64,000 nt of DNA, from assembly GCA_017405765.1 (NCBI GenBank), contig JAFQZS010000036.1, forward strand, positions 1 through 64,000, written 5' to 3'. The notes under the pieces are model-generated. The model was given only the letters and a program-made list of their open reading frames with translations, was not told where the DNA came from and ran no database searches. The position numbers were made by a program, and so were the translations under genes. Positions 1,660 through 4,818 of the stretch are shown here, one piece after another. This stretch comes from Clostridia bacterium (GTDB lineage: Bacteria > Bacillota > Clostridia > Oscillospirales > RGIG577). Each line of letters opens with the position of its first letter. Position 1 is the first letter of the stretch.

Positions 1660-3129
1660 CTACCCTGCTTTGATTTTATAGATAGACACAGTATCCCAAT
1701 TTCCGCCTCTTTCCGTATTTTCAACCTTTCTAAAATAAAGCTTATTGTATGCTTTCTCAGGTGAAATATAAAACCAATTATCATAATCTACAGTAACTTC
1801 TGCTGTTATCCCGCTCTCTTTTCCCCAAACTTTTGACCAATGCACGTTATTATGATCTCCTTGTTTATCTGTTAATTGTGATATTGCCGTATTGTGCCCC
1901 GATTTTGATATGTCATAAACCACATAATCCATATCGCAAATACCTGAATCGGTAATTTGTTGATTTCCGTCGTCAGAAACTCGTTTGACGCATAACATAC
2001 CCAAAAAACCGCCATGCGTACCTGCAACAAGCCATTTATGTCTTTGTTTTATTGCTATTCCATTAGAGTTTATGGTATAATGCCTGAAACATTCTACTAT
2101 TTTTGTTTGTGTGGCCATCTGATAAATATCTCCCCAATACATTATCTCAACTTCTTTGCAAGAGGTAATATCGAAGTCAGACGGCCACCCGGAATAGGCG
2201 CTGTTTATCTCACGCGTCACATCCATTACCGTTTTCCCGTCAAGCAGAACTATACAGCGGTTGAATTTTTCATAACCATGAAACGAACCCACCGCGCTGC
2301 CTTTATTATTCAAATATAAAGCCGCTTCATAAGCGCCGTTTTCTATAATTTCACGTTCTTCTACGAATCCCCCTTCTGTGATACTGCATTCAATGCCGTG
2401 GTTAAGTCTCCATAAATCCCCGTTTTTATACTTCTTATCTGCTCCGGCCACATATTCAGGATAGATATTATGTAAAAACTCTAATTTTAAATACTTGTGT
2501 GCTCCTATAGGTGTATAAATAGAGAATGCGCCTTTAACTGTTGCATCACCGAAGTTTTCGTTTGGATCGAAAGCAACATACTGCAAATAAGGATCTATTA
2601 TTTCCGTTTTTGTATTCTTTTTATCTTCGGGCAAATATTTTGTCTTTAAAGTTGCATAAGGAACATATTCGTTAGGCAAATCGCCCTTAACAAACATAAA
2701 GCCATCTGAAAAACGATTATTATAGCAACTCAGCCTAACAAAACGCACGTTATCTGAAAAGACTTTATTATAGTATGCCGGAGAAACATATGGCTTCATT
2801 CTTTCAATGAATTGCAGATTTTCATCGTATGTAGAGATCAGAAGACCATTTTGCTGGCTCCATGAGTACCTTTCTCCACTTTCGATCGGAATATAATCAT
2901 TTAAAACTTGGCTGTTTTTTTGAGCGACTATTCGCCCATCTCCGAATATATAGCTTCCTGTTTCTACAGCAGAATCGTTAAAAAGATTTTCACTATAATC
3001 AAAAAAGCAAGTCTGATCTTCATAAACAATGTCCGCAGCATATGATGTAACATTGAAATTGTGCAGTAAAGCTATCGTAAAACAGCATATTATACTCCAC
3101 AATATTACCGTACGTCTCCTATTTTTCAT
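1660..3129 (-). CDS. Secreted protein of unknown function
   Basis: 489 residues from the ATG at 3127-3129, which follows a GGAGG-type box; an upstream in-frame start 20 codons earlier falls inside the leader palindrome and is not preferred. The N-terminus is a signal peptide: basic NRRR, hydrophobic VILWSIICCFTIALL, then a likely cut after SYAA. The mature part is rich in Tyr, Asn and aromatic residues, with no motif I recognise and no membrane anchor or LPxTG. It resembles extracellular beta-rich proteins in composition only. It has a strong promoter of its own, lies next to a serine recombinase, and ends 45 bp from the antitoxin remnant, so it looks like an accessory gene. Function unknown. 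Confidence 0.75.
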   Translation of the reverse strand: MKNRRRTVILWSIICCFTIALLHNFNVTSYAADIVYEDQTCFFDYSENLFNDSAVETGSYIFGDGRIVAQKNSQVLNDYIPIESGERYSWSQQNGLLISTYDENLQFIERMKPYVSPAYYNKVFSDNVRFVRLSCYNNRFSDGFMFVKGDLPNEYVPYATLKTKYLPEDKKNTKTEIIDPYLQYVAFDPNENFGDATVKGAFSIYTPIGAHKYLKLEFLHNIYPEYVAGADKKYKNGDLWRLNHGIECSITEGGFVEEREIIENGAYEAALYLNNKGSAVGSFHGYEKFNRCIVLLDGKTVMDVTREINSAYSGWPSDFDITSCKEVEIMYWGDIYQMATQTKIVECFRHYTINSNGIAIKQRHKWLVAGTHGGFLGMLCVKRVSDDGNQQITDSGICDMDYVVYDISKSGHNTAISQLTDKQGDHNNVHWSKVWGKESGITAEVTVDYDNWFYISPEKAYNKLYFRKVENTERGGNWDTVSIYKIKAG

Positions 3130-3152
3130 CCTTTCCTCCCCCTTCGGTTTTG

Positions 3153-3176
3153 TCCGGAAAAGTATACTTTTCCGGA
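3153..3176. repeat. Perfect 24-bp palindrome, copy 1
   Basis: Arms TCCGGAAAAGTA / TACTTTTCCGGA meet at a central TA. It lies in the 5' leader of the secreted-protein gene, between the predicted transcription start and the ribosome binding site. A near copy is 138 bp away at 3291-3314 in the same orientation; both are followed on the plus strand by six T. See findings. Confidence 0.9.
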
Positions 3177-3206
3177 TTTTTTTGTACACAGAAGTTGTAT
3201 GTTGAG

Positions 3207-3236
3207 ATTATAGCATAAACAAGTTGTTCCTGTCTA
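3207..3236 (-). promoter_or_regulatory. Promoter of the secreted-protein gene
   Basis: On the complement, TAGACA (3231-3236), 18 bp, then TATAAT (3207-3212) preceded by TGC, an extended -10. Transcription would start near 3200, giving a leader of about 70 bases that contains palindrome copy 1. The promoter stands between the two palindromes. Confidence 0.75.
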
Positions 3237-3290
3237 TGATATTTAGGCATTTTGTCGAAATTTCCCTCAAACAACTGCCAAAATATGGTG

Positions 3291-3314
3291 TCTGGAAAAG
3301 TATACCTTTCCGGA
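3291..3314. repeat. 24-bp palindrome, copy 2 (two mismatches)
   Basis: It differs from copy 1 at two positions (TCTGG for TCCGG, and ACC for ACT). With flanks, the two copies share a 32-bp direct repeat with only those two differences. It starts 24 bp past the recombinase stop codon. It is not a convincing terminator for the recombinase, since no T-run follows on that strand. Confidence 0.88.
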
Positions 3315-3337
3315 TTTTTTACATTTTATTCCTGGCA

Positions 3338-4029: not shown

Positions 4030-4818
4030 TCAATCATACAACTCCTGTACCCATATCTCGCGCTTGCCCACATCGTCCCAGTAAATGCGGTGAGAAACGC
4101 AGGCCTCCATCATAGCGTCGTATGCCCAGTGATCCACGGGCAGATCGGGGAATATCTGCTTGAAGTCATACGGCGTTACCACTTGATTCGTTATCGAATT
4201 TATAAGCCTCGTGTTCTGGAGTATTGACGAGCTATCAAGCTCTCTGTTGTATACGCGGTTCATCGTTGCTGCGACCTCGGCGCGCGTAAGTATATTGTCG
4301 GGCTTGAATGTGCCGTCGGGATAGCCCTTCATAAAGCCGCGGATTATCATGGTATTTATCGCGCCCATTGCCCAGTGTCCTTCAATGTCGGGCGCCTTTA
4401 TGGTGGTTATATTCCTTACATACTTCTGCGTGCGAACCACTACTTCCGCAAGCTCGGCGCGCGTAAGCACACCGTCGGGACGAAACGTGCCGTCGGGATA
4501 GCCGGTAAGAAATCCTCTGTATACAAGGAAGTTTATCTGCTTAAAAAACTCGTGATCCTCGGACAGGTCTGAGAAGTTCGTATAATTCTGAATATGCACG
4601 TTCTTCGTATTGCTGTTAAGCAGATTAAAAATAACATTAGCCAATTCTCCGCGCGTTATCGGCTGATCGGGCTTAACGTATGTATCCTTGCCGTCCTTAT
4701 ATACATTCATATATTTATAATGATCAAGGTCGGTGTTCTGCAAATAAGACGCCATTGCCGGAACCATACACGCAAAGGCTAATACAAAACATAAAATCAG
4801 CGCAATTTTTTTCTTCAT
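4030..4818 (-). CDS. SLH-domain surface protein
   Basis: 262 residues: signal peptide (KKKIALILCFVLAFACMVPA, cut near AMA-SY), then three S-layer homology motifs. The first is recognisable by ITRGELANVIFNLL, the second by GYPDGTFRPDGVLTRAELAE, the third by GYPDGTFKPDNILTRAEVAA. SLH motifs hold proteins to pyruvylated secondary wall polymers. There is no further catalytic domain; the last 60 residues have a DLPVDHWAYDAMMEA piece like a partial SLH. It therefore looks like a small wall-bound protein or anchor. It has its own promoter and terminator, so it is monocistronic. Confidence 0.88.
   Translation of the reverse strand: MKKKIALILCFVLAFACMVPAMASYLQNTDLDHYKYMNVYKDGKDTYVKPDQPITRGELANVIFNLLNSNTKNVHIQNYTNFSDLSEDHEFFKQINFLVYRGFLTGYPDGTFRPDGVLTRAELAEVVVRTQKYVRNITTIKAPDIEGHWAMGAINTMIIRGFMKGYPDGTFKPDNILTRAEVAATMNRVYNRELDSSSILQNTRLINSITNQVVTPYDFKQIFPDLPVDHWAYDAMMEACVSHRIYWDDVGKREIWVQELYD

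Follow-up and report, generated by a model that had tools for sequence, protein, structure and literature searches.

A probable promoter inversion switch beside a small serine recombinase in a Clostridia genome, and a family of recombinase-linked site pairs in its relatives

Organization of the locus

Within the stretch of Clostridia DNA analysed here (the window, 64,000 nucleotides), two near-identical 24-bp palindromes were found to flank a strong promoter, the target-side site (S2) lying next to the gene of a 489-aa protein with a signal-like N-terminal segment and the recombinase-side site (S1) next to the gene of a small serine recombinase (Table 1). This confirmed the arrangement described in an earlier note on the same DNA. 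That note had read the central dinucleotide of both palindromes as TA; it is AT, with GTA and TAC meeting at the midpoint. Its placement of the recombinase end 24 bp away was right as to closeness, the figure being an end-to-end count, with 23 bp intervening between stop codon and site. The two sites lie in a 32-bp direct repeat starting at 3151 and 3289 (spacing 138) and were the only ones in the 64 kb at up to three mismatches, with 0 expected from 100 shuffles. The promoter between them scored 11/12 and carries an extended -10 element. As a T-run directly follows each site on the plus strand, both sites are also terminator-like.

Table 1. Features of the proposed switch and its neighbouring genes in the window.
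Feature	Position	Strand	Remarks
S2, target-side recombination site	3153-3176	.	Perfect palindrome, TCCGGAAAAGTA followed by TACTTTTCCGGA; same site twice on contig C50
S2, proposed crossover dinucleotide AT	3164-3165	.	
S1, recombinase-side recombination site	3291-3314	.	22/24 like S2 (two mismatches)
S1, proposed crossover dinucleotide AT	3302-3303	.	
Putative invertible segment between crossover points	3165-3302	.	Inner part 3177-3290 is 96/114 identical to the inverted C50 segment
Promoter TAGACA-18-TATAAT, TG ahead of -10	3207-3236	minus	Faces the secreted-protein gene (proposed ON state)
Inner T7 run	3177-3183	plus	After inversion would adjoin S1, as terminator for reading from recombinase to target
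Outer T6 run beyond S1	3315-3320	plus	Candidate terminator tail for reading toward the recombinase, the OFF-state promoter direction
Small serine recombinase, 197 aa, PF00239	3338-3931	minus	Proposed cognate invertase
Proposed controlled gene, 489-aa protein	1660-3129	minus	Signal-like N-terminal segment

The 489-aa protein had no match in Pfam or NCBIfam, and its residues 45-168 matched phrog_11541, a family of unknown function. Directly upstream of the recombinase, an S-layer-homology protein gene (4030-4818) is 83-85% conserved in both congeners. At the orthologous S-layer gene of congener G002 the neighbours differ and neither a recombinase, a switch nor a 489-aa gene was found, which suggests a local gain or loss of the switch module at this locus. 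Elsewhere in the window, positions 1-188 recur in 11 further copies in the genome at 97-99% identity, often at contig ends, and probably represent one end of a repetitive mobile element. Positions 618-1351 carry a PIN-domain/RelB toxin-antitoxin-like pair, and after it, at about 1440-1620, the end of the antitoxin gene, terminator included, seems by eye to be partly duplicated. In a Eubacterium MAG, a RelB-like/PIN-like pair that resembles it by eye (L010:62-803) lies beside a switch (L010:963-1112), a resemblance to the window that is perhaps due to chance.

A second copy in the opposite orientation

The genome to which the window belongs contains exactly one further pair of sites, on contig C50 at 80179 and 80317, with a spacing again of 138 and no recombinase adjacent. 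The inner 114 bp of this copy (L007) aligned with the window only when inverted and without gaps, scoring 156, where the best of 1000 shuffles reached 4. The outer flanks, in contrast, run the same way round in both copies, CCCTTCGGTTTTG (13 bp) on the left and TTTTTTACA (9 bp) on the right, and a separate BLAST comparison placed the segment on the opposite strand (88%) and the flanks on the same strand (100%). The promoter is kept on C50 as TAGACA-18-TATACT and points away from a gene pair encoding 312-aa and 808-aa proteins, the latter with a DUF6273 domain, whereas the window promoter points at its target. An inverted segment between constant flanks indicates one element in two orientations within one genome. 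The two orientations were seen between sister copies (the window and L007, and likewise L040 and L042 in the genome G004 described below) and not as one locus in two states. Neither of the two other members of the genus carried the exact site, and a family-level search covered the same three genomes.

The proposal that inversion switches the promoter is thus strongly supported by the inverted C50 copy, together with the recombinase-linked family below. The direct-repeat flanks had earlier been taken to favour deletion or a paired operator; this argument is not borne out, since the flank bases re-sort on inversion and those of the sister copy form longer inverted palindromes. By themselves, the AT centre and the 32-bp direct repeat do not favour inversion over deletion.

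Recombinase-linked site pairs across Clostridia

Of 391 genomes of the class, 50 contained relatives of the recombinase (E <=1e-50). From 62 of the 66 matches of this search and eight of the 10 in a second set, 70 oriented loci were assembled and the 700 bp on the 3' side of each recombinase gene were searched. A pair of sites with the core AARGT-NN-ACYTT lay within this distance at 24 of the 70 loci, compared with 1/70 upstream, 0/700 shuffles and 0/525 background stretches. Among loci picked by protein similarity alone the count was 21/60, or 22 with L101/L064, which stands outside the 24 because its ORF runs on past the site. The site test gave no pair at the other 46 of 70 loci, some of which are at contig ends and some perhaps diverged. 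A candidate pair at L087 (centre TT) was rejected as false. In congener G002, one of three loci examined had a pair (spacing 126) beside a 65%-identical recombinase, and this switch precedes a protein with a signal-like start.

The layout of the 24 pairs was regular, with a spacing of 117-209 bp (median 137), a site within 25 bp of the recombinase stop codon in 21 and a first ORF past the switch that runs away from it in 20. Nine pairs have an AT centre in both copies, as in the window, and 15 have an asymmetric central dinucleotide. In all 15 of the latter the copies are inverted (14 GT/AC, one AG/CT), which, with palindromic sites surrounding an 11/12 promoter in the window, is what would be expected of promoter invertons. 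Promoter-like sequence within the segments exceeded that in shuffles (combined p 2e-16, 27 elements); the better promoter faced the target in six elements (ON), the recombinase in 11 (OFF) and was unclear in 10, the mixture that sampling of a two-state switch should give. Pfam searches of the targets examined identified SLH, VWA and Ig-like surface proteins, several targets having no match, and other targets do not look secreted. The presence of a third site at L107 (G153) allows a further pairing (AC/AC, spacing 147) in overlap with the usual one, and this locus may therefore carry a nested or alternative switch. Literature searches covering the main texts of openly available papers turned up no account of this recombinase-site family.

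Searches by site sequence gave a narrower distribution. An exact 21-mer scan of genome contigs returned five stretches in three MAGs, and a search of viral contigs for the site returned 0. A class-wide pattern search (up to one mismatch) matched 4/391 genomes, with pairs only in the window's own genome, and was therefore near background. One of the three MAGs, G004, labelled Candidatus Faecalibacterium faecipullorum, contained 24 sites at up to three mismatches against 0 in a reversed-pattern control; G003 gave a weaker result (10 sites against six in the control, two pairs included) and G005 had seven against five. Palindromes before many unrelated genes had been named in advance as a sign of a regulator site, and half of this was seen: sites are numerous in G004, but 16 of the 24 form eight pairs 105-226 bp apart, and a ninth pair includes one weaker site. 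Two of the G004 loci, L040 and L042, repeat the relationship between the window and C50, their inner segments being inverted (91/99 identical) and the right flank, ribosome-binding site and target start being in the same sense (52/60). In G004, one end of contig C35 shares exactly 131 bp, including a site, with an end of contig C156; this shared end could be an assembly fork from mixed orientations, and we attach little weight to it.

Assignment of the recombinase

The window recombinase matched the PF00239 catalytic domain over residues 3-147 at 92 bits (cut-off 23.3), and its residues 1-190 of 197 align with gamma-delta resolvase, consistent with a short C-terminal DNA-binding domain. Its YGYVRVST stretch aligns with FGYARVST of the resolvase, which we take to be the catalytic Arg8/Ser10 motif. 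Across the family, the outer six bases of the site arms correlated with recombinase identity (r 0.49, 0/5000 permutations), a covariation to which common descent contributes along with specificity. The correlation was strongest with the C-terminal, DNA-binding end of the protein (r 0.52, 0/5000) and lower with its N-terminal part (r 0.41, 3/5000).

A genuine promoter inverton might instead be flipped by a recombinase other than the neighbour, the candidate being a 56%-identical paralogue (C50:48290) that shares the contig of the C50 switch at a distance of about 31 kb. We consider this unlikely, since no site pair was found in the 700 bp 3' of the paralogue, its branch of the recombinase tree has 0/12 linked pairs, and the window recombinase adjoins its switch in the layout typical of the family. 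On that tree the presence of a pair was clustered, requiring 14 changes against 20.1 when labels were shuffled (1/500 as low).

Deletion and fixed-promoter alternatives

Because the central AT is symmetric and gives the sites no direction, deletion between them is chemically possible, and recombination could then act as a one-way off switch that removes the promoter and leaves a single site. The note may have been right to allow for deletion between symmetric sites, given that four loci in G004 (L048, L051, L052 and L053) have a single site joining a flank of the recombinase-side type to the ribosome-binding site of a target, with no promoter segment and no second site in view. These four look like deletion scars. 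A fifth single site in that genome (L049) does not clearly follow the scar pattern, and a further two are located at contig edges. Also in favour of deletion, a half-site remnant and a lipoprotein-like gene come after the recombinase L057 of G004. As the main function of the locus, however, such a module is improbable: the asymmetric centres of relatives are inverted without exception (15/15), a geometry that leads to inversion and not to deletion, sister copies have remained intact in inverted orientation (C50; L040/L042), and single-site loci could have other origins. Occasional deletion between AT-centred sites may nevertheless accompany inversion.

That the palindromes merely bind a regulator or form hairpins round a fixed promoter, with the recombinase a bystander, is very improbable, for although the perfect palindromes with T-runs and the 24 sites in G004 would suit a paired operator or terminator, such a reading leaves unexplained the inverted inner segments between constant flanks, the linkage to the recombinase 3' end and the inverted asymmetric centres.

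A proposed inversion switch with terminator-like sites

Two orientations with constant flanks, linkage to a recombinase and inverted centres in relatives, each read from sequence comparison, argue that the window very probably contains a promoter inverton, a phase-variation switch in which the neighbouring serine recombinase would invert a 138-bp promoter segment at the palindromes. In the proposed mechanism, the recombinase would bind both palindromes, cut at the central AT and invert the promoter-bearing segment. As oriented in the window, the promoter would drive transcription across S2 and on into the gene for the secreted protein (ON). Once inverted, it would point at the 3' end of the recombinase gene, and its transcripts would terminate at S1, which would by then consist of A-run, hairpin and T-run (OFF). 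The same recombinase would most likely act in trans on the C50 switch, apparently caught in the OFF state before the 312-aa/808-aa pair, although the C50:48290 paralogue might be responsible at that switch instead. Catalysis by the window recombinase, present-day flipping and an effect on transcription are what we infer from these comparisons.

The palindromes may also take part in termination. In the window form, the S1 hairpin was calculated at -7.7 kcal/mol in one reading direction and -9.8 kcal/mol in the other, compared with -19.4 and -16.7 kcal/mol in the flipped form, where it becomes A6-hairpin-T7. Inversion would thus make the window S1 a two-way terminator, and in the OFF form it could halt transcripts of the misdirected promoter as well as those reading through from the recombinase gene. 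Read toward the target, S2 has no T-run in either form, so nothing would block the target in the ON form. Across the family, the S1 hairpin was stabler in the OFF form in 14/17 elements (p 0.0056), falling to 10/13 (p 0.068) when the four loci that had suggested the idea were left out, and flank complementarity went from p 0.031 to 0.32 on the same omission. The mean T-run count was 3.7 beyond S1 in the recombinase direction and 2.0 beyond S2 in the target direction (p 0.001), with the L040 and L042 rows of these counts off by one. With significance lost once the four prompting loci are removed, a family-wide terminator role of S1 is only suggestive.

Relation to known systems and implications

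In Bacteroides fragilis, the serine recombinase Mpi flips many promoters in trans, with surface molecules as targets. The present family resembles that system in having a recombinase of the small serine type, a promoter flanked by short repeats, more than one locus in a single genome and surface targets; it differs in its AARGT-NN-ACYTT core, its position at the recombinase 3' end and its occurrence in Clostridia, and the window recombinase scored 46.5 bits against a cut-off of 272 for the Mpi master DNA invertase model (NCBIfam NF009949). The Salmonella Hin/hix system likewise places a small serine invertase beside an invertible promoter segment, but there the Hin gene lies inside the segment and a Fis enhancer is needed, whereas here the recombinase gene is outside the 138-bp segment. 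Within Clostridia, the cwpV switch of Clostridioides difficile has 21-bp repeats around 195 bp and its promoter outside the inverted segment, and a proposed intrinsic terminator at the repeat is assembled or disrupted depending on orientation (PMC2784873). A comparable proposed terminator logic and a surface protein target are shared, but the window promoter lies inside its segment. Group 139 of the hCom2 catalogue similarly links Clostridia invertons to a nearby recombinase family, there of the tyrosine type and here serine; the word 'serine' is absent from the main text of the paper (PMC11892184).

Taken more broadly, and only tentatively, these loci may belong to a class of promoter switches linked to recombinases that is widespread in Clostridia and apparently undescribed. 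Each site would then be a half-terminator as well, and inversion would both turn the promoter and assemble a two-way terminator at the recombinase side. With AT centres, one recombinase might govern a multi-gene regulon of surface proteins, and rare deletions might leave promoterless, permanently silent scars. The resulting rule, that a pair of AARGT-NN-ACYTT sites with a spacing of about 137 bp, placed immediately 3' of a PF00239 recombinase, marks a switch, would predict phase-variable genes across Clostridia, and the SLH and VWA-domain surface proteins among the targets are of the kind that meets hosts and phages. As some centres encode orientation (GT/AC) and others are symmetric (AT), the variation present in the family could be used to learn how serine invertases guard against deletion.
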